DNA of 37,343 bases from Treponema sp. (lineage in GTDB: Bacteria > Spirochaetota > Spirochaetia > Treponematales > Treponemataceae), in the NCBI GenBank assembly GCA_012519415.1, contig JAAYQG010000151.1, positions 1 to 37,343 of the forward strand, in the 5' to 3' direction. The position numbers were made by a program, and so were the translations under genes. The notes under the pieces are model-generated. The model saw only the letters and a list, made by a program, of their open reading frames with translations. It did not search any database and was not told the origin of the DNA. Below, one piece after another: positions 2 to 20,594 of the stretch; position 1 is the stretch's first letter, and every line of letters begins with the position of its first letter.

Positions 2-481
2 AATGATGGTGAAATTGCAGGGTTTGAAATGCTTGAAAACTACGGCAAAACAAAAGGTGCAATGAAAGTGTATCCGGTATATTCTTATTTTTCGGAAAAT
101 CTAAAAAAAGCACCAAGCCTCACCTATAAATTTGCACTTCAAAACGAAGGCATTTATCGTTTTGATTTTTACATAAACCCGTCTAACCCCGCAACGCAAG
201 ATAACTACTTTAAGTTTGGCGCAAGCGTAAACGATAAAAAAGTGCTCATTGACGTTGTAGATAAAAATTTTGCCGTAGGAGATAATCAGCATATTTGGGG
301 AACAGATATTACAAATAACATACGCATAAAATCTGCATATTTTGATTGTCAAAAAGGAATAAACACGCTTAAAGTTTATGCAGTTACTCCAAATTTGGTG
401 CTTGAAAAAATTGTACTTTATCCAAATGAATTTGTAATGAAGCAATCGTATCTTGGTCCAAAAGAAACATACAAAAAATAG
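2..481 (+). CDS. C-terminal part of a GH115-family (alpha-glucuronidase-like) glycoside hydrolase, truncated by the window start
   Basis: Frame is open from base 2 (NDGEIAGFEMLENYGKTKGAMKVYPV...). C-terminus '...YRFDFYINPSNP...KFGASVNDKK...WGTDITNNI...GINTLKVYAVTPNLVLEKIVLYP...QSYLGPKETY' matches my recollection of the GH115 C-terminal beta-sandwich (typically 'HTLKIWMVDPGVVLQKIVID...PSYLGPPES'). Confidence 0.75.
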   Translation, partial: NDGEIAGFEMLENYGKTKGAMKVYPVYSYFSENLKKAPSLTYKFALQNEGIYRFDFYINPSNPATQDNYFKFGASVNDKKVLIDVVDKNFAVGDNQHIWGTDITNNIRIKSAYFDCQKGINTLKVYAVTPNLVLEKIVLYPNEFVMKQSYLGPKETYKK

Positions 482-624: not shown

Positions 625-1011
625 ATGAAAAAATTAAAGGTTTTTATAACACTTTTAACTCTTGTATTGTTGCTTCCAAGCTGCACAACACAAAAGTTCA
701 AAGGCAAAGCAAAAGCTACATCTTCTCATTTTGAAATGGAATATTCTATTTTTACAGGTACAAAAGATGTAACAATGACACTCCGACAAGGAGATGCACT
801 AAGCATTAAAATGGAAACAAAAAAAGGCGAAGTAAGCACATCCATTTTTTTACCCGGTCAATCTCCGATTTATGAAATTGAACCGTCAAAAAATGGAGAT
901 TTTAGAGTCAATATTGCAAAAGACGGCACATACATAATACGCCTAAAAGGACGCAAAGCAAAAGGTAGTGTTGAAATTCGCATTATTTATTCAGGAGGAA
1001 ATGTAATATAG
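625..1011 (+). CDS. Small predicted lipoprotein of unknown function
   Basis: 128 aa, signal peptide with lipobox LLPSC; RBS gaggga upstream of ATG. Confidence 0.75.
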   Translation: MKKLKVFITLLTLVLLLPSCTTQKFKGKAKATSSHFEMEYSIFTGTKDVTMTLRQGDALSIKMETKKGEVSTSIFLPGQSPIYEIEPSKNGDFRVNIAKDGTYIIRLKGRKAKGSVEIRIIYSGGNVI

Positions 1012-1153: not shown

Positions 1154-2554
1154 TTAGTTATTCATTTCGTCAATTAAGCCTTGATAATGATTCTTTGTAG
1201 CCTCATAAGCTTCTTGAGGTGTCTGTCCGCCACCATAAACGTTCCAAATAACCTCTCCAACCTGATTGATACCAATAATCATTGTATCAAATCGTGGTTT
1301 TGGATTATCGCGCATAAGCTGCAATGTTTCATCAACAGCACGTTCATCACGGAATCTTGAATAATAATCTTCTTTCCATGAAGAATCATCATCATAGCCT
1401 GGAACTTCTGTTGTATAAAGATCAAATGCTTTTGCAATTTTTTCTGCACGTTCTTTATCATAACATGCTGGAATAACATAGATATTATCCTGTGCTAAAG
1501 TTGCATACTTACCATCGCCATTTGGTCCAAGTGGGAAGCATACAAAACCCCAGTCATCTTGCATATCTGCAATGTTACCAACACGATACTGCTGGTCAAC
1601 TTGGAAAGCAACTTCACCATTGATAAAAGCAGCATACATCCAGTCCCAGTTTGCACCTTCCGGTTGTGGTTTTTCATAAGCCTGCTTCATTCTTGCAGCC
1701 CAACTCAAAGCTTCAAGAGTTTTATCATTGCCGATATTGTTAAAATATTTGCCGTTTGAATCTTTACCAATGTAGCTAGTACCATTAGACATAGCAGCAA
1801 GATAACAGAATTCTGTAGAAAGGTTTGCCATTCCATATGTATCAAAAGCACCATCGTTATCAAGATCACGAGTTGTTTTTTTCAACATTTCTTCAAATGT
1901 TTCCCATGTCCATTTGCTCTCTTTCTGCAAATCATAAATTGTTTCAGGGTCAATACCTGCTTCTTTTAACAAACGCTTGTTAAAGAAAACACCGACACGA
2001 GGTTCTGAAGCCATTGGACGCATACCGTAGAAACGTCCATCTTTGGTTGTCAAATCAGTTGTTGCTTTATCCCATTTTGGATTTGACCAATCAATTGAAG
2101 TAATTGAAGACAAATCATAGAACAAGTTTCCTTTCATACCAGTAGTTAGAGAACGATTGTCAATAATAAAAACATAGTTCTCATCTCCACCTGTTGTACA
2201 GAAATTCGCAACTGTCTGTGGGTGAGCACCCCAACCGCCAATACCGTAAGTATCGATATCAACATTGTAAGCAACTTTCAAAAATTTATGAAATTTTTTT
2301 GTATCTTCATCAACAGGATTTACCGGTTCTGCATTGTCCAAACCATCGCTTGGCGACCACCAGTCTGCGACAATAATTTCCATACCTTCAAAGTCATAAA
2401 CTTTCTTTGTATTAGGATCTTTTTCAAGTTTTACACTTTTATATTCCTTAAACAAAGCCTTTTCTTCTTCGGTCAAGTTCTTTTTATTTCCACAAGAAAC
2501 AAAAAGAGCTGCAAACCCAATAAAAAGAACAATTTTTAATGCTCTTTTAACCAT
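1154..2554 (-). CDS. ABC transporter extracellular solute-binding lipoprotein (family 1, sugar type)
   Basis: 466 aa, signal peptide with lipobox LFVSC, sugar SBP motifs (GVFFNKRLLKEAGIDPE, WTWETFEEMLKK, FINGEVAFQVDQQYRV); RBS aaggagg. Confidence 0.88.
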   Translation of the reverse strand: MVKRALKIVLFIGFAALFVSCGNKKNLTEEEKALFKEYKSVKLEKDPNTKKVYDFEGMEIIVADWWSPSDGLDNAEPVNPVDEDTKKFHKFLKVAYNVDIDTYGIGGWGAHPQTVANFCTTGGDENYVFIIDNRSLTTGMKGNLFYDLSSITSIDWSNPKWDKATTDLTTKDGRFYGMRPMASEPRVGVFFNKRLLKEAGIDPETIYDLQKESKWTWETFEEMLKKTTRDLDNDGAFDTYGMANLSTEFCYLAAMSNGTSYIGKDSNGKYFNNIGNDKTLEALSWAARMKQAYEKPQPEGANWDWMYAAFINGEVAFQVDQQYRVGNIADMQDDWGFVCFPLGPNGDGKYATLAQDNIYVIPACYDKERAEKIAKAFDLYTTEVPGYDDDSSWKEDYYSRFRDERAVDETLQLMRDNPKPRFDTMIIGINQVGEVIWNVYGGGQTPQEAYEATKNHYQGLIDEMNN

Positions 2555-2576
2555 AATTATTAGCCTCCTTAATTTA

Positions 2577-2597
2577 TTTTCTCTAAACTAGAGAAAA
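2577..2597 (-). repeat. 9-bp stem / 3-nt loop hairpin just upstream of the SBP RBS
   Basis: TTTTCTCTA-AAC-TAGAGAAAA. Confidence 0.6.
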
Positions 2598-2713
2598 GCA
2601 GCGGAAAAGTTTTAACAAATCCGCAAAGTAACCAAATTTTATCAGCAATCATATCGCAGCAACTTATCCTACAATCACATTACAGAACAAGTTACTAACT
2701 AGCTTAACATTTA

Positions 2714-2737
2714 AAACGGATTTTGTAAAATCCATTT
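2714..2737 (-). repeat. Intercistronic hairpin between permease and SBP genes
   Basis: Inverted repeat around GGATTTT-GT-AAAATCC (2718-2733), extendable with A/T and G-T pairs. Confidence 0.5.
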
Positions 2738-2756
2738 GTTATAAAAAATATCAGTT

Positions 2757-3716
2757 TTACATTTTTACACCGGTTGAAGCCAAACTTTCAACAAATAAAT
2801 TTTGTGCAAAAATATATAAAATCAACAGAGGGATTAATATTATTAAAACTCCTGTTGCCACAATCGCATTTGTATAACCAATTGTTACAGTTTGCATTCC
2901 ATAAGCATTCATCATATATTGTGCAAAACGGTCGCCTAAACTTGCAACTTGTGTTGATAATAATTTTATTTTACCTAAAAACAAATCCGTATAAAATGTA
3001 TCTGTCCATTGCCATACAAATGCAAACAAAAAGCAAGATGTCAAAATCGGTTTTGCACCGGGAACCATAATACGGATAAACGTTGAAAGAGGTCCGCAAC
3101 CATCAACATAAGCAGCTTCTTCAAGTTCAAATGGAAAGCCCATAAAATACTGACGAATCATATAAATATAAAGTCCGTTTTTTAAGCCCATACAAGTAAA
3201 GCACATCATTAAATACGGTAGCATGGAACCGCGCAAATTAAACGTGTGTCCAAAAATTTTAAAAAACCTAAAATGCAAAAACAGTGACGTTGAAATTGTC
3301 TGCGGCGGAATAACGATTACAAGAATAACACAAAAAAACCAAAATCTCTTAAACGGAAACTGAAAGCGAGAAAATCCATAACCTACAATAGAACAAATAA
3401 AAACTTGAATCATTGCTACCAATGTAGAAACCCACAAGCTGTTAAAAAGAGAAGTTTTATAGTCCATAATAGCAGCTGCAATACGATAATTCGATGTTGA
3501 AAAGTTTTTAGGAAGAACAACTATAGTCGTATCGTACAAGTCTTTTTCTGCCATAAAGCTTATAGAAATCTTATTTAAAATTGGCTGCAAAATCAAAAAG
3601 CACATTCCAAAAATCAAAATTCCACGAAAAATTGAAATAGTATACTTTTTTATAGTTTCCCTAAGTAAAACACCGTCGGAAGCCTCGTTTCTTGCCCAAA
3701 AGTCTTTATTAGTCAT
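2757..3716 (-). CDS. Carbohydrate ABC transporter permease (MalG/LplC type)
   Basis: 319 aa, about 6 TM, EAA loop 'EEAAYVDGCGPLSTFIRIMVPGAKP'. Confidence 0.9.
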   Translation of the reverse strand: MTNKDFWARNEASDGVLLRETIKKYTISIFRGILIFGMCFLILQPILNKISISFMAEKDLYDTTIVVLPKNFSTSNYRIAAAIMDYKTSLFNSLWVSTLVAMIQVFICSIVGYGFSRFQFPFKRFWFFCVILVIVIPPQTISTSLFLHFRFFKIFGHTFNLRGSMLPYLMMCFTCMGLKNGLYIYMIRQYFMGFPFELEEAAYVDGCGPLSTFIRIMVPGAKPILTSCFLFAFVWQWTDTFYTDLFLGKIKLLSTQVASLGDRFAQYMMNAYGMQTVTIGYTNAIVATGVLIILIPLLILYIFAQNLFVESLASTGVKM

Positions 3717-4635
3717 AGTTATACACCACCTTAGAAATAATCAAAGAAGACAAACCAATCAAAGCCATAACAACAACAAAATAAATCCATGCTAATGCGG
3801 AACTAAAACCATAATTAAGTTGACCTATCATTACATCATTTATTTTTCGCATGACAGCATTATCAGTCTTTGTAAAAAAGTCAATAATTGTATAAACCCA
3901 GCAAACAAGCATAAGCGGGCTAACCATTGGAACAGTAATTTTCCACAACCGTTCCCAGCTTGTACAACCTTCCATATCTGCAGCTTCGTACATACTTGGT
4001 GAAATATTCTGCAAGCCCGAAAGGAAAATAATAATTTGAATACCTGATGCCATTGCAACATCATATATGGAATCAATAATTTCAAAAATTCTTTTGAAAA
4101 GTCGACTGCTAACACTGTTGACACCCATCGTATTAGAAACAAGAATTTTTTCAAGCACTTCTGTAATCGTATTGGAATTTCCTTGTTCCTCAATAGTCGC
4201 TTTTAGTTGAGCTAAAAGTGCATTACCAAATTCAAGCCCAACAAGCACTCCTGAAGAAAGAATAACACATAAAAAGAAAATTGAACGCACTAAAGTTCTT
4301 CCTCTAAATTTCTGGTTCAACAGCAAAGCCACGAAGAAACTGAAAACAATTGTTGCAAGTGAACGATAAAACATTGTAGCAATAGAAGTTAAAAGAAGTC
4401 TGTTAAATTCGGGATCAATAGTAAATGCCTTTATATAATTTGCATAATTGTTCCAGTGCAAAGCAAAACCACGTGTTGTTACATCAACATTAGAAAGGCT
4501 CATTGAAAGCGATTGATAAAGCGGCTTTATCATAAAAAAAATAAAACCAATAATAAACGGACTTATAAAAGCATAGCCAAGACGTGCTCTGTGACGCGCA
4601 AGCCCTATTTTTTTCTTTTTTCTGTTAAACAGCAT
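3709..4635 (-). CDS. Sugar ABC transporter permease (MalF/LplB type)
   Basis: 308 aa; EAA loop 'YEAADMEGCTSWERLWKITVPMVSPL'; overlaps the downstream permease. Confidence 0.9.
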   Translation of the reverse strand: MLFNRKKKKIGLARHRARLGYAFISPFIIGFIFFMIKPLYQSLSMSLSNVDVTTRGFALHWNNYANYIKAFTIDPEFNRLLLTSIATMFYRSLATIVFSFFVALLLNQKFRGRTLVRSIFFLCVILSSGVLVGLEFGNALLAQLKATIEEQGNSNTITEVLEKILVSNTMGVNSVSSRLFKRIFEIIDSIYDVAMASGIQIIIFLSGLQNISPSMYEAADMEGCTSWERLWKITVPMVSPLMLVCWVYTIIDFFTKTDNAVMRKINDVMIGQLNYGFSSALAWIYFVVVMALIGLSSLIISKVVYNYD

Positions 4636-7238
4636 TAACGAGCCTCCATAATTTTGTAATCACGAGCAGGAATCTTTATGCCTCCAGGTGTTTCAAAATC
4701 AACATAACCGAAATTAACAATAACAGAATATCCATTATCGAATTTTGTAACAGTAACATCATCATTTAAAAATTCATGATTATCAATTCGTGCATTACAC
4801 ACAAGTCCAATTTCTAAATTATAACGTGAATAAATATCTTGCATTTTACTCTGCCAGTTATCAAAATTTGAAGAATAATATTCCGTAAACTTTGTTTCTT
4901 GCAAACTTCTTTCCGATTCCGCAATAAATGTAAATGCAAGCCCTGCCCCACATTCAGCAGCTTCAAGAATAGCTTGTTTTATCTCGCCCGAAATATTTAT
5001 GGCAGAACCTGTAAATGTAACATTTCCATGAAGAGCAATTTGATAAAAAGGAATATGCTTATCAAGAATTGCATAATTATTACCGTGAAAAACCATATTC
5101 GTTACACAATCTGCATCTTTTACAGCATAAACATTTCCGGCATTTATCATAATTCCAAGCCCTGAATCTTTAACAGCTTTGAATATTGAAAGATGTTCAT
5201 TTTTTACAGCATTTCGGCTTATTTTGCGTTTTGGATTATAATCAGCAGAAAGATGATACCCGTTATCTCTAAAAGAAATGCCATCGAAATTGTACTTAGT
5301 AGCATTTTTACTAAAATTTAGAGCAGCTTTTTTACTTTCCGTAGGACGTAAAAGATAATAAGGCTCTTCCGTATCAAGTTTTCCATACCAAATCGGCGAA
5401 TATTCGCTTAATTCGCATACTTCGCTACTGGCAAAACGTGCAGAATGACTAAAATGATTAAATCCGTCATTTAACGACGGCAAAAAAGCGTATTGAACTT
5501 GACCGTCCAAAAAAACTTTAGCTGAGCAGTTTTTTGTTTCGTCTACCATTTTTTGAAAAGCATTTGAACCGCCAAGCTGTCGTATAAGCTTGAACTTTTG
5601 CAATGATTTTTGTTTTATTCCGCTGTTTATAAAACCTGAAAGTTTAATAAAGCATACAGGCATATCCATTGAATCAATGGTTTTTATTATATTTTTTGCC
5701 TGCTCATATGATGTAAGTTTATACGGCAAAATTTTAGGAATTCCAAGAACTTGCTGCATTTTGGAAATCGCACCTACAATTTCTATTGAAACAGGCACAG
5801 CTTTATTTGCTGATTTTGCAGAATCACCAAACAAATAACTGCGGTATTTTTTTGCCATATCAGAATATGAATCCGACTCAACAAATGTGTAAATCTGTTC
5901 AATACTTTCGCCTGCTGTTAAAGAACGTTCGTAAGCATATTGTGTATTAATATTTCTTGAAGACGGCTCATATTTTTCACTATGAAGAATTTTATAATCT
6001 GCAAAAACATAATTGTAACTACCAAGTTTGCCAGCAACATCAGCAGAAACGGCTCCATATTCTGCACCGTTTTGCATAATCGAAATAAAACTTGATTTTC
6101 CGTTTGAAACACCAAAAACCGGAAAAGCTGCACGAGTTTCTGTCATAACAGCATCTCGGTCTGTTCCATAATCCCAGCCGTAAATATCACAATAATACGA
6201 ATTTTGGCGAATTTTCCCATTGTTAAAGTTTATTATGCTTCCGCCGCCTTCCGGCACAAACAAGAAACCTTTATCATCTTTTCCGCCTGCACCAAAATAT
6301 GGAAGCACAGAAAGTCGTATAATTGGAAAATCCTTTTTGTAAGAAATTTTATCGAATGGAACTTCAACAATAAAATTATTTCCATCAAGTTTATACGTTA
6401 CGGAAATATTAAAACCAGGCACATTTTTTACTTTTCCTCCCGCATACATAACAATATCGCGGTCGTAATCTTCTCTTGTATAACCGATAGAAGCAAAAAT
6501 CTTTTCGTTTTTCTCTTTCAAAAATGTCTGCAAAGGACTTCTGATTATATAAATCGGCTCTTTTTCGAGCATCGGATATTGTTGCAAAAGTTGGCTTTTA
6601 TTGTCAGATGCAAGAAGATTTCCAATATCAATTCTTCGATAATTTTGCTTAACTGTGCGCTGATCGCTTGAAGATAATTGTTTAAGATATTCATCCATAT
6701 CATTTTCAGTTAATGCCATCGGATAAACATAAATACGCTCAATATCGCCGACACTATAATCGATTATAAGTTCGTTTCCGTTTTGTTTTATTTTATATGC
6801 GTTTTTTGAAATCGAATAATTGTAAAAATCGTAAGAAGTATCAACGCCATTTATTGTTGAATATTTTAATAAAAACGGAGATCGCATATTATCTTTTTCT
6901 TTTTGTAAAGCTAATGGGTCTTTTTGAGAATCAATAGGATTTGAATACCAAATATGTCCGTTTAGCTTTTGCGTAATTGAAAACATTGTCGTTTCAGGAT
7001 CTAGCTCCAAGCGAAGATATTCGTTCTCAAGCACATATTTGTCGGGTTGACCTTCACTCAAATATTCAAACTGCTCCAAAACAGTATCAGCAACTTTGCT
7101 TACGTTAACAAGCTGAACTCCAATATATGCAATAAAACCTGCCAAAAGCAGCCAAAACACGAAGATAATCCAAAATTTTGGCGAAGTAATTTTTTTTATC
7201 AAAGACGACCGTAAATTCTGCTCAATATATTCTTTCAT
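4635..7238 (-). CDS. Membrane-anchored DUF5696-like protein, putative carbohydrate-active (GH-like) ectoenzyme
   Basis: 867 aa: one N-terminal TM (FWIIFVFWLLLAGFIAYIG), a mutarotase-like N-terminal beta-sandwich ('YVLENEYLRLELDPETTMFSITQKLNGHIWYSNP'), a middle region resembling a TIM barrel, and a C-terminal 'VTVTKFDNGYSVIVNFG...GIKIPARDYKIME' module. Confidence 0.65.
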   Translation of the reverse strand: MKEYIEQNLRSSLIKKITSPKFWIIFVFWLLLAGFIAYIGVQLVNVSKVADTVLEQFEYLSEGQPDKYVLENEYLRLELDPETTMFSITQKLNGHIWYSNPIDSQKDPLALQKEKDNMRSPFLLKYSTINGVDTSYDFYNYSISKNAYKIKQNGNELIIDYSVGDIERIYVYPMALTENDMDEYLKQLSSSDQRTVKQNYRRIDIGNLLASDNKSQLLQQYPMLEKEPIYIIRSPLQTFLKEKNEKIFASIGYTREDYDRDIVMYAGGKVKNVPGFNISVTYKLDGNNFIVEVPFDKISYKKDFPIIRLSVLPYFGAGGKDDKGFLFVPEGGGSIINFNNGKIRQNSYYCDIYGWDYGTDRDAVMTETRAAFPVFGVSNGKSSFISIMQNGAEYGAVSADVAGKLGSYNYVFADYKILHSEKYEPSSRNINTQYAYERSLTAGESIEQIYTFVESDSYSDMAKKYRSYLFGDSAKSANKAVPVSIEIVGAISKMQQVLGIPKILPYKLTSYEQAKNIIKTIDSMDMPVCFIKLSGFINSGIKQKSLQKFKLIRQLGGSNAFQKMVDETKNCSAKVFLDGQVQYAFLPSLNDGFNHFSHSARFASSEVCELSEYSPIWYGKLDTEEPYYLLRPTESKKAALNFSKNATKYNFDGISFRDNGYHLSADYNPKRKISRNAVKNEHLSIFKAVKDSGLGIMINAGNVYAVKDADCVTNMVFHGNNYAILDKHIPFYQIALHGNVTFTGSAINISGEIKQAILEAAECGAGLAFTFIAESERSLQETKFTEYYSSNFDNWQSKMQDIYSRYNLEIGLVCNARIDNHEFLNDDVTVTKFDNGYSVIVNFGYVDFETPGGIKIPARDYKIMEAR

Positions 7239-7263
7239 TCTAATTTCTCCTATACGTTCGCCG

Positions 7264-7941
7264 TCAATTCAGCCTAAACATAATCTCTTTTCCAAGTGAA
7301 ACAAAATATGAAATACCTTGCGAAATCATGCTAAAGAAAAGTAACATTATAAAAATGAAAACAAGCATTCCAAAAACTGTAATAACAAGGAACAAAAGAG
7401 TTTTACCGGCAGTATAAACGTGAATCATCATCATTGCCATAAAAATCAACATAACACACCATAAAAGCGAAATGTTATCAAAAACATAATAAAATGTACT
7501 CTCTTCTATTGTAACAAAATTGCTAAAAACAATAATTGGAATCTGAATTAAAGGATATGGAGTCAACGCATAAGCAGTACCCATATAAATTTCATCAAGA
7601 TGCCCTTTACCATCAAAAAGTGTAGTTACACCCCAGTTACAAATACAAAAAACGACAAGTGGCAACAAAACAGAAGCACACTCAACAAAAATATTTACTT
7701 TTTCCCAGTTTACATCAACTACAAGAAAACTTGTAAATCTAAGTTTCCAGATACGCGTTAAAAGAGTGAGAAAAACAATAAAGTTTGCCGCAGCAAGTGA
7801 ACCGCGTTTCGCATGTGTTAAATCCCAAAAACCATCAGCCGGATGAAATATAACATAAAAGGCATAACGTAAAGTTTCAAAAAAATGATCATAAGTTTGT
7901 TTTTGCCCAAGTTTTTGTATACGTCTAGTTACAAAGTTCAT
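7264..7941 (-). CDS. Yip1-family-like multi-pass membrane protein
   Basis: 225 aa, about 5 TM; N-terminal 'FHPADGFWDLTHAKRGSLAAANFIVFLTLLTRIW' and 'GKGHLDEIYMGTAYALTPYPLIQIPI', typical of YIP1-domain proteins. Confidence 0.65.
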   Translation of the reverse strand: MNFVTRRIQKLGQKQTYDHFFETLRYAFYVIFHPADGFWDLTHAKRGSLAAANFIVFLTLLTRIWKLRFTSFLVVDVNWEKVNIFVECASVLLPLVVFCICNWGVTTLFDGKGHLDEIYMGTAYALTPYPLIQIPIIVFSNFVTIEESTFYYVFDNISLLWCVMLIFMAMMMIHVYTAGKTLLFLVITVFGMLVFIFIMLLFFSMISQGISYFVSLGKEIMFRLN

Positions 7942-9404
7942 TAAACCCCAATCTCCTTTCTAATTTTTGAAATTTTTTTGATAATTGTAAAAACAACAAG
8001 CAAAAATAATGTAGCAAAAACAAAATATCCAGCATTTTTTTCAACAACCTCTTTTCGATAATACATAAATGCTTTAGAATAACCTTTTTTGTCGCGCTTT
8101 AGTTTAAAGTGAGTCATTGCATCTTTATATCGCTCTTGTCTAATATAAGCTTTGCCAAGACCAATATATGCCAAATCATAATTTCCGTTTAATTCAAGCA
8201 CCTTACTCCATGTTTCTGCAGCTTGCTCATAATCGCCGCAAGCATATTGTTCAGTTGCATCATAGATAAGATGACCAAAATCTGTCGGCGTATAAACTGT
8301 AAGTGCACAGCTTTGAGAATCCAGAATTAACAAATCGCGTCCACAATGTTCAATAGCAGTCGGATTTCTAAAATAGCCTTCGAGGTTTCCCTTGCCGGCA
8401 AAAGCAAACAGCAAATACCCTTGATTGTTATAACCGAAAATTCTGCCTCGCATTTCATCAATTGCAATATAAACTTCATTATCCAACACCGTTAAATCAG
8501 CAAATTTAGACGGCCCTCTTATACCGGCTGCATTTCCCCACTGAAGATCTCCAATAGGGGGAACAACTCCGTTTTTTACAAGAATATCTTTTCCAAGCGC
8601 ATTCAACCGACGGATTGGTTTTGCTCTATCAGATTTTAAGTCCCATTCTTGAAAAGTTTTAACAGTTGCAAAAACGAAACCTTCATTATCAAGATACGCA
8701 TTTGAATATTCAGTCGGAACAAATGATTCCATTTGCGAGCGTTGCTTTCTTGTAGAAAACAGCTTCCATACATAATCTGTCCAATTGAAAACTACATCGC
8801 TTGCGCCATAAAAACCTGTAAAAGTTCCATTATAATCATATTTAATAAAACCGTTATTTACATTTTTCGCAAGCACATAAGGTCGCCCTTTTTCGTCGAC
8901 AACTACTTTTTCCGGCAAAAATGCTTTCCCGCGCTCATAAGTAGGATGATCAGGTTCTGTAAAGGTGCGAATAAAGTTAAGATCTTTATCCAGCTTTAAC
9001 ACACGTCCATTGTTAGTGTCTGCAATAAAAAATGAACCGTCTTTATTTACAAAAACATCACTAGGATTAGAAAATGTAGTTGTTATTTCTGCATCCGATG
9101 CATAAAAATGATTTATTTCGCGAACAAACGATAAAGTTTTATTCTCATTGTAAATAAGCTCAATAATTCGATTGTTGCCGGAATCTACAATAAATACTCT
9201 ATTTCCGGTGCAGAATAATCCTGTAGGATTTTTTAGCATATCATCAAGCCCCAAATTGTTTCCGTACAAAACGCTTGAAACTCGATATGTATCTGGAGAA
9301 CGTTCGATTTCACCCCAATAATCATATATGTAATTATCATTTTTTGCGAATATAGTTATAATGCACAAAAAGAACAAAATACAAAAGAATATATATTTTT
9401 TCAT
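7941..9404 (-). CDS. NHL-repeat (beta-propeller) plus TPR exported/membrane protein
   Basis: 487 aa; signal peptide, NHL-like repeats ('NPTGLFCTGNRVFIVDSGNNRIIEL', 'NPSDVFVNKDGSFFIADTNNGRVLKLDKD'), TPR-like 'GNYDLAYIGLGKAYIRQERYKDAMTHFK', C-terminal TM. Confidence 0.8.
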   Translation of the reverse strand: MKKYIFFCILFFLCIITIFAKNDNYIYDYWGEIERSPDTYRVSSVLYGNNLGLDDMLKNPTGLFCTGNRVFIVDSGNNRIIELIYNENKTLSFVREINHFYASDAEITTTFSNPSDVFVNKDGSFFIADTNNGRVLKLDKDLNFIRTFTEPDHPTYERGKAFLPEKVVVDEKGRPYVLAKNVNNGFIKYDYNGTFTGFYGASDVVFNWTDYVWKLFSTRKQRSQMESFVPTEYSNAYLDNEGFVFATVKTFQEWDLKSDRAKPIRRLNALGKDILVKNGVVPPIGDLQWGNAAGIRGPSKFADLTVLDNEVYIAIDEMRGRIFGYNNQGYLLFAFAGKGNLEGYFRNPTAIEHCGRDLLILDSQSCALTVYTPTDFGHLIYDATEQYACGDYEQAAETWSKVLELNGNYDLAYIGLGKAYIRQERYKDAMTHFKLKRDKKGYSKAFMYYRKEVVEKNAGYFVFATLFLLVVFTIIKKISKIRKEIGV

Positions 9405-9406
9405 AG

Positions 9407-10333
9407 TTATTCCTTTAAGCCCGATGTTGCCATTGTTTCAAGAATCTGGCTCTGTGAAAATACAAAAAAGAGAACAGGCACAATTATCATTACAACACCA
9501 ACTGCTGCCATTGGACCTGCTCTTACAACACCACCAAGCTGGAGTTGCTGCAAAGCATAAGCGAGCATTTTTTTGCTTTCTGTATAAATAACATTTGAAG
9601 CATTGTTATTCCACAATCCTTGAATTGAAAAAATTGAAATTGTAAGCCATGCAGGGCGAACATTCGGCATAACAAGTCCCATAAAAATTTTCCATTCACT
9701 TGCACCGTCAATCTTTGCAGCTTCAATAATTGCCATAGGGAATCCTTCCATATACTGCTTCATTAAGAACAACCCCATAGGAGAAGCAAACGCCGGAAGA
9801 ATTAAAGCCCAATAAGTATCTACAATACGAAGTTTGCTCATAACCAAAAAGTTTGGAATAGATGTTACATAACCTACAAACATAAGTGCCACAACAACCA
9901 GCTTAAAAAAAGCATCCCCTAGAGGAAATTTATATTTTGCAAGAACATAAGCAGCCATTGATGCAACAATAACATGACCGAAAGTGCCGACAACAGTTAT
10001 AAAAACAGTATTGAACACATACCGAGAAAACGGAACCCATGACAACTGACTCATAATAACAAACAAATCTGAATAATTGTCAGTTGTCGGATTTCTAGGA
10101 AATATAGTCGGCGGAAACCTAAACAATTCGTCCAAAGGCTTAAACGACTGACAAATCGAAAAAACCAGTGGAAAAACCATTAATAATGAAAACAAAAACA
10201 CAACGAAATATACACCTATATCTCCGCCAATTGAACGGTTTGGTTTTCGTCGCTTTATTTTATAGTGATGCACAACCGGAGTTGACTTAGCTGCACGACT
10301 TTTTTTCATGTTAAAACTCCTTCTACTTACCAA
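9407..10333 (-). CDS. Carbohydrate ABC transporter permease (MalG/LplC type)
   Basis: 308 aa; EAA loop 'IEAAKIDGASEWKIFMGLVMPNVRPAW'. Confidence 0.9.
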   Translation of the reverse strand: MVSRRSFNMKKSRAAKSTPVVHHYKIKRRKPNRSIGGDIGVYFVVFLFSLLMVFPLVFSICQSFKPLDELFRFPPTIFPRNPTTDNYSDLFVIMSQLSWVPFSRYVFNTVFITVVGTFGHVIVASMAAYVLAKYKFPLGDAFFKLVVVALMFVGYVTSIPNFLVMSKLRIVDTYWALILPAFASPMGLFLMKQYMEGFPMAIIEAAKIDGASEWKIFMGLVMPNVRPAWLTISIFSIQGLWNNNASNVIYTESKKMLAYALQQLQLGGVVRAGPMAAVGVVMIIVPVLFFVFSQSQILETMATSGLKE

Positions 10334-11261
10334 CTCTGTTCAATATAGCTTGGAAAAGATTTCTGGAAACAATCATAATCAAAACTAAAACAGTAGCAAT
10401 TGCAGATGCGTATCCCATTTCAAAGCGAACAAAACCATAGTCAAATAGGTGTGTAACAATAGTGCGCGCTGCATAATCCGTACTTGGAAAACCTGCTAGG
10501 TTTCTTGGAACATCAGAAACGTTGAAAGTATTTGTAATAGTTATGACTGCACCAAAAAGAAGCATAGGTTTCATGCTTGGCAATGTAATAAACCATAATT
10601 CTTGCCAGCGATTCTGAATGCCGTCAATATATCCTGCTTCATACATAGACTTATCAATACTTTTAAGACCAGCAACAAATGCTAAGAAATTTGCACCTAA
10701 ACTCATCCACAAAATAATAGGAATAAGCAATTTCATTATATTGCTGGGATTTGCAAAAAATATAATAGGTTCAACAATAAAACCCCATTTTATAAGCCAG
10801 CCGTTTATCCAACCTTGTGCATCATCCTTAAAAATAGTTGTAAAAATCGTATACGCATTTGCAGCTATTGATGGTGCAAAACAAAAAAGCACTATAATAG
10901 ATCTAACCCATTTAGGTAATTCGTTTATAAGCCATGCAAAAATAAATGCCATTATGTAGCCAACTGGTCCTGCAATGATTGCTATAAGAAATGTATTTTT
11001 TACGGCAATCTGAAATACTTCATCTTGTAAAAACAGATTTATGTAATTTCTAAGTCCAATAAATACAGGTTTTTCCAAAATATTAAAATTTGTAAAACCA
11101 TAATATATTGAATTTACAATCGGCAAAACTGTAAATGTAAAAAATAAAATTGCAAACGGCAGCAAAAACAAATAACAAACTTTCATATTTTTGGCCTTAT
11201 GCCATGCGTTAGAAAGTTGAAGAAGTCGCTTTTCTTTATATTTCTTCCAGAAACTACTCAT
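10323..11261 (-). CDS. Sugar ABC transporter permease (MalF/LplB type)
   Basis: 312 aa; EAA loop 'YEAGYIDGIQNRWQELWFITLPSMKPM'. Confidence 0.9.
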   Translation of the reverse strand: MSSFWKKYKEKRLLQLSNAWHKAKNMKVCYLFLLPFAILFFTFTVLPIVNSIYYGFTNFNILEKPVFIGLRNYINLFLQDEVFQIAVKNTFLIAIIAGPVGYIMAFIFAWLINELPKWVRSIIVLFCFAPSIAANAYTIFTTIFKDDAQGWINGWLIKWGFIVEPIIFFANPSNIMKLLIPIILWMSLGANFLAFVAGLKSIDKSMYEAGYIDGIQNRWQELWFITLPSMKPMLLFGAVITITNTFNVSDVPRNLAGFPSTDYAARTIVTHLFDYGFVRFEMGYASAIATVLVLIMIVSRNLFQAILNRVGK

Positions 11262-11263
11262 AA

Positions 11264-14203
11264 TTATTCCTCCGTTGGAAGATTGAACTCTTGTCGTTTT
11301 CGAGTTAATTCTTCGTTAACCTTACGTGTATAATCAATAAGCACTTCGCGCGGATCATCTTTTTCGTTGATTACTTTGCGCATACCATTAACCATATGCC
11401 TACTAGTGTAATAACTGCCTGGAACTTCCGGAACGCCGCGTGATTCTTCCAATGATTTAAGCAAAACTTTTAATTGAGCAGAACTCCATGAAAGCTGTTT
11501 TAATGCTTGAAGATTTGCAGTAGTATAACGAGCAGAAAGCCCAAGCAAAGCTTCAAGCTCACGTCCAAAACGAACCTGAGCTTCAGTTGAAACCCACCAT
11601 TTCATAAATTCCCATGAATCTTGGCGACGAGCGGCTTCTTTTGCTAAAGCTTTTTCATTATCACCTTCTTTTGCCTTGTTAATCATCACAGTACAAACAC
11701 CAGAGGTAGTAGTTGAACGGTCAAGATACTCATTACCATCTTTATCAATTCGTATTGTTCCTGGAAGATAAGTAAAATCCCAAAGACCACGAATTTCTGG
11801 AGCAGAAACTACAAGCGTGTTATAACTTTCATAATTTGCAACAGCCAAAGGCATTTCTCCGGAACGGAAACGACTTACAAAATCGTAATATGGTTCCAAA
11901 CCATAACTATTGAACAAACTTGTGTATGTTTTAAATGCAGAAACACCAGTTTCGCTATCAAGCAACGAACGAGTGCCTTTGTTATTATAAATTACACCGC
12001 CATTTTGGTAAAACATCGAATAAAACACAGATAAATCCGCTAATTGAATATTCGGATATGGAACACCAACATTCAATTTATTTCCCTGTAAAGTTGGCAA
12101 AAGTGTAATTAAGTCATTCCACGTATTTGGAATATCAACATCAAGTTGCTCTAAAATATCCTTTCGATAGAACAAAGTGTTAAATGTTACTCTTTCCGGC
12201 AATGCGTAAATTCCGCCATCATATTCATATGCTTCATAAGAACTGTATGGAAACTGTTTTAGAACATCTTTACAACCATCAAATTGCATTAAATCTACGT
12301 TTGCATGACGCAGTGCATAATCAACGGGCAAAGAAGCATAAGCAGAAATAACTACATCAGGACCGATACCGGCAACAACAGCAGGCAAAAGAGCATTAAC
12401 ATCAATAAGTTTAAGATTTACTTTTATGCCCGTTTCAGGTGAAAAACTATCATCTATCATGTTTTTCAAAATTATACTTTGATCACGTCCAGCAACAATC
12501 CAAACTTCAATCAAACGATCATCATTTTTATTATAAACATCACCCAGCATTGTAGAATCGACAACGAAAGATGTAAAAAATGAAACAATTTCATGTTTTA
12601 ATTTATTTGCGAACGTTGCCTTTGGTGCTTCAAGCACAACATTTTCACACACTGCATCAAGTTGAATAAAATCAATATCGAGCTTTGATTCCGTTAAACT
12701 TAAAAGTGAAGCTCCTAAAGATGTGATGTTGTCTTTAAAATTTTGAAAACTCTTTGTAATTTTATGCGGATTTTTGTAAAACTCTTCGAGCTGAATAGCA
12801 AGAGTCTGAGCCGGAGCAATTTTATCCGATTTTTGACCTGTGATTTTTACAAAATCGTCAACAATTTTATAAAGGCGTTTAGCCTCAAGGTTCATTGCTT
12901 CTAATTCATTCGGATAAGCTTTTTCAATATCATAATCACGGAAAGCATCAGGGTGAGTACCTGTCAATACAAGAATTGTTCGATAAATTGTATTTAATCT
13001 GAAAATCGAATCTTCCAAGCGATTAATAATAGGCCCAACAAGACCAAGCGTAACTTCCATACGCAAAGTATGTGTGCCTTTTTCAAAATAAAACTGATAA
13101 GGATTTTCTTCTTCATCAGAGAGAGTAACAAAATTCCAGTCTGTGCTGTACTTAAATTCAACAGCTTTTACGCCGTCAAATGGAATTTTGTTATCAATAT
13201 AAAAAGTGCGACATGCAATATAACCTCGCTGATAAAGCTGACGAGCTTGCACAGAAATTGTATACCAGCCGTTTTCCGGAACGGTAAATTCCCAGTCAAT
13301 CCATTGACCTGAATTTTTCCAAGAATTTCCGCCTGTGTAATTAAAAACAGAATTCTTTACACTGTAAGGTTCTGTAACAGGTGAAGAACGATCATAGCTT
13401 GCAAACAGCGATGGATCTGAACGGCGGAAAGAATCTTCACCTTGAATTTTAATTTGCATCGGAGATGAAGCAGGTACAGGCAAAGAAGGTTGTTTTGCAA
13501 TATATTCAGAATATGTATCAATTATTTCAACAGGGCAAAGCGAAAAGGCACGTATAGCCATAGGTTCGTTTGTTGCTTCAAACGAAATTGAATTTATTCC
13601 TTTTTTAAAATAGAAGCGATACGGCTCAACTTCATAACCTAAGTCGCTTTTGAAAAACGAAGTCTGCCAATCAAAAATTTCTGCTTGTATAGGGCGAATC
13701 TGGTTTCCCTGATTATCTTTTCGGATAACACCGCCATCATGCCATATTCGCTGAAATGTTAAAATATCAGCACCTATAAACGGAACGACTCCATTAATAT
13801 AAACAGTGCGTTCCATACTAACATTTCGAGAAGGCATTGCAATATATTCTATCGCAATGTTATAAAAACCTTCTTCTGGCACATCTACAAGCCATGTTAC
13901 AAAAGATTCATTTTCAGTTACAAGTACACGACTGCCATAGTAATTATCTTGTACGTACACACCTGTAGACGAACTTTCAAAAGAACAAACATCAACTTCA
14001 ATAAGAGTAGACGGTTCATTTTTACTTGGTTGCATTTGCAGATAGTCATTATAAGTGTTTACACGCCCAACAGTACTTTTTTGTGTAGATAAATCAACGC
14101 CTTCATATTTTTCAGAAAAATCTTTTTGCGGCATCAAAATTATCAACGCAAAAACCGCAATAATTGCACAAATAACAAGTGCAATATAAACAGCTTTTTT
14201 CAT
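11264..14203 (-). CDS. Large ABC solute-binding protein with two N-terminal beta-sandwich (CBM-like) domains
   Basis: Start moved from 14227 to the internal ATG (MKKAVYIALVICAIIAVFALI) preceded by aggaag. Two related modules end in 'PYRFYFKKGINSISFEAT' and 'PYQFYFEKGTHTLRMEVT', followed by an SBP fold ('IKVNLKLIDVNALLPAVVAGIGPDVVISAYA... LPERVTFNTLFYRKDILEQLDVDIPNTWNDLITLLPTL'). Confidence 0.82.
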   Translation of the reverse strand: MKKAVYIALVICAIIAVFALIILMPQKDFSEKYEGVDLSTQKSTVGRVNTYNDYLQMQPSKNEPSTLIEVDVCSFESSSTGVYVQDNYYGSRVLVTENESFVTWLVDVPEEGFYNIAIEYIAMPSRNVSMERTVYINGVVPFIGADILTFQRIWHDGGVIRKDNQGNQIRPIQAEIFDWQTSFFKSDLGYEVEPYRFYFKKGINSISFEATNEPMAIRAFSLCPVEIIDTYSEYIAKQPSLPVPASSPMQIKIQGEDSFRRSDPSLFASYDRSSPVTEPYSVKNSVFNYTGGNSWKNSGQWIDWEFTVPENGWYTISVQARQLYQRGYIACRTFYIDNKIPFDGVKAVEFKYSTDWNFVTLSDEEENPYQFYFEKGTHTLRMEVTLGLVGPIINRLEDSIFRLNTIYRTILVLTGTHPDAFRDYDIEKAYPNELEAMNLEAKRLYKIVDDFVKITGQKSDKIAPAQTLAIQLEEFYKNPHKITKSFQNFKDNITSLGASLLSLTESKLDIDFIQLDAVCENVVLEAPKATFANKLKHEIVSFFTSFVVDSTMLGDVYNKNDDRLIEVWIVAGRDQSIILKNMIDDSFSPETGIKVNLKLIDVNALLPAVVAGIGPDVVISAYASLPVDYALRHANVDLMQFDGCKDVLKQFPYSSYEAYEYDGGIYALPERVTFNTLFYRKDILEQLDVDIPNTWNDLITLLPTLQGNKLNVGVPYPNIQLADLSVFYSMFYQNGGVIYNNKGTRSLLDSETGVSAFKTYTSLFNSYGLEPYYDFVSRFRSGEMPLAVANYESYNTLVVSAPEIRGLWDFTYLPGTIRIDKDGNEYLDRSTTTSGVCTVMINKAKEGDNEKALAKEAARRQDSWEFMKWWVSTEAQVRFGRELEALLGLSARYTTANLQALKQLSWSSAQLKVLLKSLEESRGVPEVPGSYYTSRHMVNGMRKVINEKDDPREVLIDYTRKVNEELTRKRQEFNLPTEE

Positions 14204-14513
14204 AATACTTCCTAAAAATTCGCACAATTTTTTTGCGAAAATCCTTAAAGAGATTTAATGACAAAACATCAAATATAATCTCTCAATTTATATTTTATAT
14301 TCTTTATTTTTATATTAATAAACTTTCTTAAAAATAGCATAATTCACTGAGTATAGGAAAATGTTTTCATAAAAACAGACCCTTGAGAACCTTACAATCC
14401 AAATTTATAAGTTTTAGTTTTATTATTCATGGTAATTTTTTATTTACATGTGGAAAATACTAAAATACTCCGCAATTCTGTATTAAAACCAAAAACATAC
14501 CAGATTCAAACAG

Positions 14514-15773: not shown

Positions 15774-16517
15774 TCAAACTGCAATTTGAACGCATTTTTT
15801 TATGGGATGTTCTACAATTTTAACATTAATATCATAAGCTTTTTTTATGTTTTCAGATGTTATTACATTTTTCACTGTCCCATCAGCAATAATGCTTCCC
15901 TGACTCAAAAGCAAAATTTGTTCAGCAAATATGGCAGCCATATTAATATCATGCATTGTTACAACAACGCATTTTGTTTCTGCAATTTTTTTTAAAATTT
16001 CAAAAAGAGTATACTGATGTTTAATATCAAGATTTGCTTGCGGTTCATCGAGCAAAATATATGGAGTATCTTGCACCAAACTTCTTGCTATTGCAGCACG
16101 CTGGAATTCTCCGCCGGAAAGCTCCGTAACAGCTCTTTCTGCAAGCGTTTCAAGTGAAAAACTTTCTAAAGCCCAATCAACCAGTTTTTCATCTTTTTCT
16201 TTTGCAAAATATCCAAGCGACACATATTCCCTAACAGTATAAGCCCATGCGCAAATTTCATTTTGTGTTATAAAAGAAATTGTATGTGCTCGTTTCAAAC
16301 TTGAAAAACTTGAAATTGGCATATTATCAATCATAGGTTCATTCTTAAATTTAAGTGAATTGTTAGGAACACCTGCAATTATTGAAAGTAATGTAGATTT
16401 TCCAGAACCATTTGCACCCAAAAGCATTGTTAAACCTTTATCTTTAAGACAAAACGAAATATTTTTGAGTATCGCCTTTTTTTCATATTCAGCACATAAG
16501 TTTATAGCTTCAATCAT
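15774..16517 (-). CDS. FecE/BtuD-type ABC transporter ATP-binding protein (siderophore/cobalamin/heme)
   Basis: Walker A GANGSGKST, signature LSGGEFQRAAIARSL, Walker B YILLDEPQANLD; start moved to MIEAINLC with RBS aagagg. Confidence 0.85.
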   Translation of the reverse strand: MIEAINLCAEYEKKAILKNISFCLKDKGLTMLLGANGSGKSTLLSIIAGVPNNSLKFKNEPMIDNMPISSFSSLKRAHTISFITQNEICAWAYTVREYVSLGYFAKEKDEKLVDWALESFSLETLAERAVTELSGGEFQRAAIARSLVQDTPYILLDEPQANLDIKHQYTLFEILKKIAETKCVVVTMHDINMAAIFAEQILLLSQGSIIADGTVKNVITSENIKKAYDINVKIVEHPIKKCVQIAV

Positions 16518-16593
16518 AAAAAGATTCCTCTTAATATTAAAAAAACGCATTTAATATTCTACAAAACTTAATTTTAAGCTTTGTGCTAACAAA

Positions 16594-17889: not shown

Positions 17890-18660
17890 CTACACAGCAA
17901 AAATTTCTAAGATTTTATCACGCAAAGAAGTATTGTCAAAATTCTTTACAAGAACATCAAGAGCAATATACAAAGTTGAAATTGTTTTTGAAGTAGGTTT
18001 TAGAACGATTATTCTATCAGCTAACAAAATAGCTTCTCGTATATCGTGCGTTACGCAAACAACAGTGCGAGCTTCTGTTTTGAGCAATTTTTTTAAAAGC
18101 TGCATAAGCTGTTCTTTTAGTATTATATCTTGAGATTGAAATGCTTCATCCATTAACAGCACCGGTGCTTTTATAGCGAAAGCTCGTGCAACAGAAGCTC
18201 GTTGCTTTTCACCACCGGAAAGCTTGCCAGGATATTCTTCAATTTTATCTTTCAAACCGGTAGCACACAAAAACTCGACTGCTCGTTCGTGGGCTTCTTC
18301 TTTCGACATAAAATTTTCCAAAGGCAACGTGCAGTTTTGCAACAATGAACACCAAGGTAAAAGTCTAGGTTCTTGAAACAAATATGAAACTTCTATTTTT
18401 TTCTTTTTTTTTGAAGAATCTAAAACATTATTTGAACCTATTTTTACGACTCCGGATTCTGCCTTGATAAGAGAAGCGATGCAATCCAAAAGAGTTGTTT
18501 TTCCAGCACCACTAGGCGCAAGGATGGCATTAACAGTGCCAGCCTCAAAAACAAAAGAAAAATTTTTGTATATTGATTTTTTTCCACGAGTTACAGTTAA
18601 ATTTTCAATAATTATATCTTCACAAAAATCTTGGTTTTTAGCTTGCAAAAAATTATTCAT
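17890..18660 (-). CDS. NitT/TauT/ThiZ-type ABC transporter ATP-binding protein
   Basis: Walker A APSGAGKTT, LSGGEKQRASVARAF, VLLMDEAFQSQD. Confidence 0.88.
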   Translation of the reverse strand: MNNFLQAKNQDFCEDIIIENLTVTRGKKSIYKNFSFVFEAGTVNAILAPSGAGKTTLLDCIASLIKAESGVVKIGSNNVLDSSKKKKKIEVSYLFQEPRLLPWCSLLQNCTLPLENFMSKEEAHERAVEFLCATGLKDKIEEYPGKLSGGEKQRASVARAFAIKAPVLLMDEAFQSQDIILKEQLMQLLKKLLKTEARTVVCVTHDIREAILLADRIIVLKPTSKTISTLYIALDVLVKNFDNTSLRDKILEIFAV

Positions 18661-19423
18661 GCTGAGTCTCCGGCTGCAAACGGCTTCTTAATTTTTTTGT
18701 ATAAAATCCAAAAATACTTTCGCAAATATAGCTTAACGAAACAACAGCAAATGTCCATGCAAACACATCAACTGTTTCAAGGTGAACTTTTGCTGTATAA
18801 AGAACTGTTCCGACAGAATTTTTAGGCAAACTTAAAATTTCACCAGCAACAACAACTTTCCACGTTAATCCTAAAGCACTTAACATTCCTGAAAAAAAAT
18901 ATGGTGCAACAGATGGAGCATATACAAAAAACAATTTTTGTCTTGAAGAAAAACAATAAACTTCTGCCATATCCAAAAGTTTTTTATCCGTGCTTTTAAT
19001 TCCTGTGGCAACATTTTCCGTTAACACAGGAAGAGTCATCAAAATTGATACAAAAACAGGAACGGATGAACTTTTAAACCAAAAAAGCGCAACAAGAATA
19101 AAAGATACAACCGGTGTAGCTTTTATTACAGAAAGTGGAAATTGAAAAAAAGCAGCAAAATCTTCACTTATTCCAATAATCACGCCAAAAACAGCAGAAA
19201 TACAGACAGAAATAGCAAAAGCTTTAAAAGCACGAATCAAAGTCGAAGCAACAATTTTTTGAAACTCTTCTTCCGTAATTAGTTCTGCAAGTCTAAGAAA
19301 AACTTGAAGAGGTTCTGGTAATACAAGCGGAGCAGATATTTTAACTGCAATAATATGCCATAAAGAGAAAAACAAAATTATAGAAAGACAGATTAAAACA
19401 GCTTTCCGCATTTTACGATTCAT
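18653..19423 (-). CDS. NitT/TauT/ThiX-type ABC transporter permease
   Basis: 256 aa SsuC-like: 'LVLPEPLQVFLRLAELI', 'KATPVVSFILVALFWF', 'GLTWKVVVAGEILSLPKNSVG'. Confidence 0.88.
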   Translation of the reverse strand: MNRKMRKAVLICLSIILFFSLWHIIAVKISAPLVLPEPLQVFLRLAELITEEEFQKIVASTLIRAFKAFAISVCISAVFGVIIGISEDFAAFFQFPLSVIKATPVVSFILVALFWFKSSSVPVFVSILMTLPVLTENVATGIKSTDKKLLDMAEVYCFSSRQKLFFVYAPSVAPYFFSGMLSALGLTWKVVVAGEILSLPKNSVGTVLYTAKVHLETVDVFAWTFAVVSLSYICESIFGFYTKKLRSRLQPETQHE

Positions 19424-20427
19424 TCAAAATAAAAATTATCATCCGGCAGTTTTCCGCCGACAGAAGCTGGTGCATATTTTAAGAATGTTTGCAGCAATAA
19501 TTCTATTTGCGGTTTTGCTTCTTTTGCAGGACTAAAACCGAATGCACAATTTGGAATAGCTTTTTCTGCAATTTGAGCTTTAAGCCCAAGCGTATGCTTT
19601 TCTACAAGAAGAGACGCTTCATAAGTATTCTGATTAGTCCATTTAATTGAATTTTCAGCTTCTTGCAAAAAGGAATTAACTAATGCAGGGTATTTTTTGG
19701 CAAATTCCTTTCTGACAACAATAGTTGTCATCGGAAATGTATCGGTATTAAAAAATTCGCTCCAAATAATTTGTAAATCTAAAGAACGATACACTTTTAA
19801 TTTTTCTGAACTTCTTAAAACAGCTACAGTTGCAAATGGCTCTGGCACAACAGCATAATCAACTTTGCCCGAAACAATAGCTGCAGCAAGTTCGCTTGTT
19901 GGAATGCTAAAATCTAATGTTACAGAATTTTCCCCGTTTTGATTAATTCCGCTTTTTTCAAGAATAGCTCTAAATATGTATTCTGGAGTTGCACCCTGCC
20001 CTGCTACATATACAGTTTTGCCTTTTAAATCTTCTAACGATTTTATTGTTTTATCCGTAGATACAAGATTTAACATTCCAAAACCACTTACAGCTGCTAA
20101 AATTATAGAATCAGGTTGGCTTGAATAAACTTTTGTAGCAACATTAGGAGGCAAAATGCCAATATCGAGTTCGCCTTTTAAAAGCTTTGGCAACAATACA
20201 TCGGGGCTTGCACAAACTTCATAATAAATGGAAGTGTTGTCGATTTTTGAAACATTTTCAAACAAGTATGCAAAACACATACCGCTTGGTCCATTCAACA
20301 CTGCCATATTTATAGATTCGGGTACATTATTTTTCTCTTTTGAAGCAAATCCAAAAGAAAAAGACAAAAACAAAAAAAACATTCCGCATAAAGCGCACAA
20401 CAATTTTGTAGAAAATTTATTTATCAT
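19420..20427 (-). CDS. NMT1/THI5-like ABC substrate-binding protein
   Basis: Start moved to internal ATG (MINKFSTKLLCALCGMFFLFLSFSFGFA, signal peptide); 'LKGKTVYVAGQGATPEYIFRAILEKSGI', 'AAAIVSGKVDYAVVPEPFATVAV'. Confidence 0.82.
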   Translation of the reverse strand: MINKFSTKLLCALCGMFFLFLSFSFGFASKEKNNVPESINMAVLNGPSGMCFAYLFENVSKIDNTSIYYEVCASPDVLLPKLLKGELDIGILPPNVATKVYSSQPDSIILAAVSGFGMLNLVSTDKTIKSLEDLKGKTVYVAGQGATPEYIFRAILEKSGINQNGENSVTLDFSIPTSELAAAIVSGKVDYAVVPEPFATVAVLRSSEKLKVYRSLDLQIIWSEFFNTDTFPMTTIVVRKEFAKKYPALVNSFLQEAENSIKWTNQNTYEASLLVEKHTLGLKAQIAEKAIPNCAFGFSPAKEAKPQIELLLQTFLKYAPASVGGKLPDDNFYFE

Positions 20428-20433
20428 GTTTTT

Positions 20434-20463
20434 ATTATAATCACAAACTTTTAAAAATATCAA
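20434..20463 (-). promoter_or_regulatory. Promoter directly abutting the SBP start codon (possible leaderless mRNA)
   Basis: Minus strand TTGATA - 18 bp - TATAAT - AAAAAC - ATG. Confidence 0.55.
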
Positions 20464-20594
20464 CTTGTAGCTTAAATCCAAATGCGAAACCTGTATTTTG
20501 CAGTATATACGACAGAGAATCCTCTCCTGATTTCGGTGGAAGAAGGAGAGAGGTAAAGTTAATAAATCACAATATGCATCATGTTGCAAATTCG

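Follow-up and report, generated by a model that had tools for sequence, protein, structure and literature searches.

A conserved nine-gene cluster of Treponema sp. predicted to encode a CUT1-type ABC importer with additional NHL/TPR, Yip1 and DUF5696 proteins

Contig JAAYQG010000151.1 of Treponema sp. (assembly GCA_012519415.1), which was analyzed over its whole length of 37,343 nucleotides and is here called the window, carries on the minus strand at positions 1154-14203 a cluster of nine genes. Two permease pairs of ATP-binding cassette (ABC) transporters enclose an NHL/TPR, a Yip1-family and a DUF5696 protein, and a solute-binding protein (SBP) is encoded at either end. With somewhat better than even confidence, these nine genes are read here as encoding a single ABC import machine of the CUT1 type with extra fixed subunits. 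This reading is based on a gene order kept in Spirochaetota, Clostridia and Bacilli, on the fusion of the NHL/TPR and Yip1 proteins in many loci, on the predicted fold of DUF5696 and the loss of its catalytic residues, on the presence of a single suitable ATPase in the genome and on the xylanase genes found nearby.

Organization of the cluster

The source genome comprises 2.45 Mb in 189 contigs (window, C77), is 98% complete and has its close relatives among Spirochaetaceae/Treponema. A preliminary description of the window, made from the sequence without database searches, had listed nine genes, and all nine minus-strand open reading frames (ORFs) were recovered with the order, coordinates and domains given there. 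The first gene (11264-14203) encodes SBP1, an ORF of 987 aa with an SBP_bac_1/8 domain at residues 594-886 (E 6e-15), for which the ATG at 14203 used in that description is preferable to the mechanically called TTG at 14227. It is followed by permease A (MalF/UgpA-like CUT1, 10323-11261), permease B (MalG/UgpE-like, 9407-10333), a protein with NHL beta-propeller and TPR domains (7941-9404), a multispanning membrane protein of the Yip1 family (7264-7941; PF04893, 33.7 bits at a cut-off of 28.6), DUF5696 (4635-7238; Pfam match with E 3e-169), permease C (UgpA-like, 3709-4635), permease D (MalG/UgpE-like, 2757-3716) and SBP2 (1154-2554), a CUT1 solute-binding protein of the lipoprotein type (lipobox LFVSC; SBP_bac_1-type match with E 7e-15). 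In total, SBP_bac_1 was matched twice and BPD_transp_1 four times, each time above the cut-off for the latter, besides NHL and TPR, Yip1 and DUF5696. The EAA loops of the permeases were identified by eye in the translations and are intact in all four (EAGYIDG...LP in A, EAAKIDG...MP in B, EAADMEG...VP in C and EAAYVDG...VP in D).

The genes overlap or abut as described before, with 2-nt gaps, 1-nt overlaps at 7941 and 4635 and an 8-nt overlap at 3716/3709, and Yip1 and DUF5696 are spaced by 25 nt. The tightness is broken only by a gap of 202 nt between permease D and SBP2 (2555-2756), the sole sizeable one in the cluster.

Conservation of gene order across phyla

Genomes of 59 relatives and of 296 Spirochaetota were screened with the DUF5696 model (PF18952), and 20 regions of up to 20 kb showed identical gene order wherever the contigs permitted. 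Scanning a single genome of each species yielded 80 loci from Treponema and Lachnospiraceae, again with the same order. All nine genes were present in order in 70 of the 101 spirochaete and Lachnospiraceae loci; the remaining ones were mostly truncated by contig ends, or a permease, Yip1 or SBP2 was masked by ORF calling. Because the 80 loci had been chosen by similarity to the DUF5696 protein of the window, a second draw was added, in which 393 Clostridia genomes were screened for DUF5696 with nothing but the Pfam model. DUF5696 scored above the cut-off in 90 of these, with up to three copies per genome, and the uninterrupted core SBP1-A-B-NHL/TPR-Yip1-DUF5696-C-D, with NHL/TPR and Yip1 separate or fused, was found in 43 of 57 loci with a long DUF5696 protein, two annotated plasmid copies included. 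In the other loci of this set, the core met a contig end, was obscured by antisense ORF calls, contained a split gene or had one permease displaced. In Bacilli, the copy of Paenibacillus cellulosilyticus reads ugpC-SBP (986 aa)-permease-permease-'YIP1' (719 aa, with NHL inside)-DUF5696-permease-permease.

Apart from contig ends, failed ORF calls and displacement of one permease, long DUF5696 proteins were always accompanied by both permease pairs, and the variable member is SBP2, which is sometimes missing and sometimes duplicated. The preliminary description had made its proposal depend on a neighbourhood conserved in other genomes, and such a neighbourhood was found. Chance clustering of the nine genes was rejected because their order is kept across phyla. 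In one spirochaete copy a transposase-like gene (L057, 12351-13367) separates NHL and Yip1, and no SBP2 was recognized there. Scans of viral contigs found nothing.

The NHL/TPR and Yip1 proteins

The NHL/TPR protein consists of a signal peptide, an extracytoplasmic part with propeller and TPR, and a C-terminal transmembrane helix. In 28 of the 57 loci, Paenibacillus included, it is joined with Yip1 into one protein of some 680-720 aa, in 24 the two are separate, and fusions were also found in two spirochaetes. Because of these fusions, the two proteins probably work as one unit. A precedent for a Yip1 protein as obligate accessory subunit is the four-component ABC exporter YknWXYZ of Bacillus, in which YknW is needed for YknYZ activity and modulates assembly of the transporter (PMC4887032). 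YknWXYZ is, however, a MacB-type exporter, whereas the Yip1 protein described here stands with CUT1 importers and has an NHL/TPR propeller as its coupled or fused partner. The cluster differs from a YknWXYZ-type transporter in that neither a MacB/FtsX permease nor a MacA-like fusion protein nor a dedicated ATPase is among the nine proteins.

Fold and catalytic residues of DUF5696

The DUF5696 protein of the window is composed of an N-terminal transmembrane anchor (residues 23-41), a beta-sandwich, a TIM barrel and a C-terminal Ig-like domain. A sequence search retrieved the exo-alpha-1,3-(3,6-anhydro)-D-galactosidase DagB (PDB 5opq/8rzg-8rzk) at 1e-10, and the family profile matched DagB at 5e-17 and NagBb (GH129) at 1e-4; neither the window protein nor any of 38 relatives was matched by the Pfam GH129 model PF11308. 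The structure model (pLDDT 84) had DagB 5opq as its best Foldseek match (E 4.6e-35, TM 0.67 on target), and DagB, NagBb (5wzr) and GH101 led the ranking, followed by GH36 and GH31. The DagB/ZgGH129-like enzymes and the alpha-N-acetylgalactosaminidase NagBb (5wzn) resemble DUF5696 in profile and in the succession of beta-sandwich, TIM barrel and Ig-like fold, but DUF5696 differs in its additional transmembrane anchor, an identity of only about 14%, the replacement of the catalytic Glu by Asn and the fixed link to an importer.

The second catalytic residue of NagBb is taken here to be Glu478, and a Glu is seen at this position in the alignment of NagBb with the stand-alone DUF5696 protein L241. 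The catalytic Asp435 of NagBb is the residue that it has in common with DagB (Asp486) (PMC5698469). L241 aligned with NagBb over 226-564 (2e-9), the Asp of its YIDV motif falling on Asp435 and the Glu of its SES motif on Glu478. The window protein was aligned jointly with GH129 and DagB-like proteins, hhalign being used with a profile of four GH129 proteins. Its Asp658 fell on Asp435 in two of three alignments and off the catalytic Asp in the third, and its Asn699 was located at Glu478 in all three.

In a survey of 157 DUF5696 sequences, five stand-alone and 152 transporter-linked, 5/5 stand-alone and 5/152 linked proteins combined an acid at the Asp435 position with Glu at the Glu478 position; a Glu within one residue of the Glu478 position was present in 5/5 and 10/152, respectively. 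The catalytic Glu is gone (replaced by Asn, Tyr, Ser and others) in about 93% of the transporter-linked relatives, and several linked clades have lost the Asp position as well. Because of this distribution, the family appears to comprise enzymes outside the module and pseudoenzymes inside it, and we read the window protein as a putative non-catalytic oligosaccharide-binding subunit. An active GH129 member was rejected for the window protein, in which the catalytic Glu is missing. The preliminary description had proposed capture, processing and import. The results lend support to capture and import, but not to processing, because the sole candidate enzyme, DUF5696, lacks the catalytic Glu here and in about 93% of the linked relatives.

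In the same importer, DUF5696 might instead be active through unusual catalytic residues (Asp658 with, for example, Asp356, Asp666, Asp726 or Glu762) and trim oligosaccharides at the membrane before import. The GH129/GH101 fold and the mostly retained Asp658 are in line with this, as are, among the 97 closest relatives, the invariant Asp356, Asp666 and Arg675, Asp726 in 96 and Glu762 in 94 proteins; the related DagB also requires acids beyond the NagBb pair, one of which (Asp202) is contributed by a second monomer (PMC5698469). However, Asp356 and Asp666 vary in the wider Clostridia sample, several linked clades are without even the Asp, and it is the stand-alone members that keep both acids, while the linked ones have mostly replaced the Glu. 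Activity of this kind is considered unlikely, at perhaps one chance in a few.

The stand-alone proteins (L241-L245) are short (560-600 aa), have no N-terminal anchor and show a weak Pfam match to GH101; they are candidates for an uncharacterized group of glycoside hydrolases.

One machine or two importers

The preliminary description favoured one machine over two independent transporters. One conserved module rather than a set of chance neighbours was indeed found, but joint assembly of the two permease pairs is inferred. Two independent ABC importers (SBP1-A-B and C-D-SBP2) could share the operon with three unrelated membrane proteins, in agreement with the completeness of both permease pairs, their intact EAA loops and the structured 202-nt gap that sets SBP2 apart. 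Yet the order is fixed across phyla with the three non-transporter proteins always between the permease pairs, and neither pair stood alone in the sampled loci, which had been found via DUF5696, free-standing A/B pairs not being sought. Moreover, C and D often persist where SBP2 is absent from its usual position, and therefore they cannot depend on SBP2. Two separate importers are accordingly regarded as improbable. Still less probable is a substrate-sensing complex in which NHL/TPR-Yip1-DUF5696 would read the oligosaccharide via the transporter and pass a signal on to gene regulation. AraC-type regulators do flank 29 Lachnospiraceae loci, and one Butyrivibrio copy has a sensor kinase and a response regulator in its flanks, but these regulators vary by lineage, none belongs to the conserved core, and the domain search detected no cytoplasmic signalling domain among the nine proteins.

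Solute-binding proteins

SBP1 has a hydrophobic N-terminal membrane anchor without lipobox, in contrast to the lipobox-bearing SBP2. Two tandem jelly-rolls (approximately residues 45-430) and a helical linker precede its SBP_bac_1/8 domain. Residues 45-566 were modelled with a pLDDT of 84, and the jelly-rolls matched the tandem CBM22 of xylanase Xyn10C, CBM35 and CBM6 in fold, at a similarity too low for family assignment. The gap upstream of SBP2 (2555-2756) recurs in relatives with a median of 141 nt, compared with -8 to 16 nt at the other junctions. It folds into strong predicted RNA hairpins (z = -2.96, minimum free energy -46.9 kcal/mol), which are possibly an attenuator or RNA-stabilizing element allowing a different level of SBP2.

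ATPase supply

No ATPase gene is located within 1154-14203, and the preliminary description had postulated a common MsmX/UgpC-type ATPase elsewhere. In agreement with this, OB_MalK was found once in the genome, in a UgpC-like ATPase encoded on contig C56, 173 nt downstream of a GH10 xylanase gene. Since the genome holds several further permease/SBP sets of the CUT1 kind but one MalK-type ATPase, this predicted MalK/UgpC-type protein must be shared by multiple importers. In each of eight Lachnospiraceae genomes one strong OB_MalK-type ATPase match was obtained, with a second, weaker match in two of them, and in Paenibacillus ugpC lies directly upstream of the cluster.

Genes for ATPases of other types were located in the window outside the cluster at 15774-16550 (FecCD), 17890-18660 (NMT1-type) and 28554-29255 (MacB/FtsX-type). 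The last belongs to a minus-strand group (27187-30525) of one ABC ATPase amid two MacB/FtsX-type permeases. In another minus-strand group (17890-22463), an NMT1-type binding protein, a permease and an ATPase are encoded beside a chemotaxis receptor gene, which suggests transporter-linked chemotaxis.

Neighbouring enzymes and substrate

At the left end of the window, a GH115 alpha-glucuronidase C-terminal domain (29-481, plus strand) is encoded by a gene that runs off the contig end. Contig C60 of this genome encodes at its end the N-terminal 781 aa of a GH115 protein (L141, 3-2345, minus strand), and a GH10 gene lies further on. The two contigs are very probably adjacent, the GH115 gene being split between their left ends, so that GH115 and GH10 would stand beside the cluster. 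Between GH115 and the cluster, a small predicted lipoprotein of 128 aa without family match is encoded at 625-1011 (plus strand).

Among the 59 relatives, GH10 was present in all 10 genomes with DUF5696 and in 10 of 49 without it (Fisher p 3e-6, confounded by kinship). The cluster is flanked in Lachnospiraceae by GH10, GH43, GH115, GH8 and esterase genes and AraC regulators. Other spirochaete copies are near GH5, GH26, GH27 and GH130 genes (GH5, GH27 and GH130 judged by eye from the sequence), and Clostridia copies near GH10, GH43, GH3, GH5, GH9, GH95 and fucosidase genes. Because GH10, GH43, GH115, GH8 and esterase genes adjoin the cluster here or in relatives, the substrate of the window copy is most likely xylan fragments, and the xylan link of the preliminary description is supported by the neighbouring GH115 and the probably adjacent GH10, the co-occurrence of GH10 and the xylanase-type flanks. 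For other copies, mannan or fucosylated glycans are suggested instead, and the machine is probably a general one for plant-wall oligosaccharides. The Paenibacillus copy (L147, 17874-27097) is followed by several genes for LLM-class flavin-dependent oxidoreductases and extra SBPs, not by glycosidases, which suggests a very different substrate.

Comparison with known systems

The cluster most likely belongs to the CUT1 oligosaccharide importers, with a predicted function in transport. It resembles those with a shared MsmX/UgpC/MalK ATPase in its SBP_bac_1 proteins, MalF/MalG-like pairs, EAA loops, ATPase-free operon and the one OB_MalK in the genome. In contrast to ordinary CUT1 importers, there are two permease pairs, three fixed non-transporter membrane or exported proteins and a giant, anchored SBP1 with tandem carbohydrate-binding-like domains. 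Contig C178 of the same genome served as comparator and encodes two permeases, an SBP and GH10 without DUF5696, the genome's only DUF5696 being that of the window. A SusCD-type polysaccharide utilization locus was rejected, as neither a TonB-dependent SusC porin nor a SusD lipoprotein is among the nine proteins. Xylan loci of Butyrivibrio have been described with CUT1 SBPs and permeases beside GH10, GH43, GH115, GH67 and esterases and with induction by xylan or pectin; NHL, Yip1 and DUF5696 proteins are unmentioned in the passages considered, and no link of the reported SBPs to SBP1 or SBP2 was found (PMC6344614, PMC5217386).

Proposed mechanism

In the proposed mechanism, the membrane-held SBP1 would capture long xylan-type oligosaccharides via its two carbohydrate-binding-like domains and its binding-protein domain, and DUF5696, a glycosidase turned binding subunit, would hold the chain uncut in its barrel cleft. 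NHL/TPR and Yip1 would form one membrane-spanning scaffold joining SBP1, DUF5696 and the heterodimers A/B and C/D, one common UgpC/MsmX-type ATPase would drive both permease pairs, and SBP2 may deliver substrate separately as a free lipoprotein. The preliminary description had placed the machine at the cell surface. In the double-membrane spirochaete it would rather be an inner-membrane and periplasmic system, whereas it would face outward in the single-membrane Lachnospiraceae and Paenibacillus.

Several points weigh against this mechanism. Of the 97 closest relatives, 87 retain Asp or Glu at the Asp658 position, although an acid there is not obviously needed for pure binding; both acids occur in 5 of the 152 linked members, so the loss may not be universal, and the stand-alone sample consists of five proteins only. 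Kinship confounds the correlation with GH10, since a single genus accounts for five of the 10 DUF5696 genomes, and flanking enzymes vary (GH26, GH27, GH130, GH95, fucosidase), so that not all copies have xylan as their substrate. Assembly into a complex, co-expression and binding are sequence-based predictions; we infer likewise the joint assembly of both permease pairs, non-catalytic binding and the exact substrate.

More tentatively, and with somewhat less than even confidence, the cluster could represent an undescribed class of ABC importers in Spirochaetota and Bacillota, in which NHL/TPR-Yip1 yokes two permease heterodimers and an anchored, perhaps processive, former hydrolase threads the oligosaccharide without catalysis.

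Significance

The order of the cluster is common to very different gut and soil bacteria. In a literature search that was thin on subscription journals, no publication mentioning its central protein DUF5696 and no description of such a module of NHL, Yip1 and transporter proteins were found. In textbooks, ABC sugar importers are five-part machines. If the proposed mechanism is true, DUF5696 as well as a group of bacterial Yip1 and NHL/TPR proteins would gain assigned functions, a clear example of a hydrolase turned transporter part would be provided, and a widespread importer with three extra conserved subunits would change the picture of how rumen and gut bacteria take up fibre.

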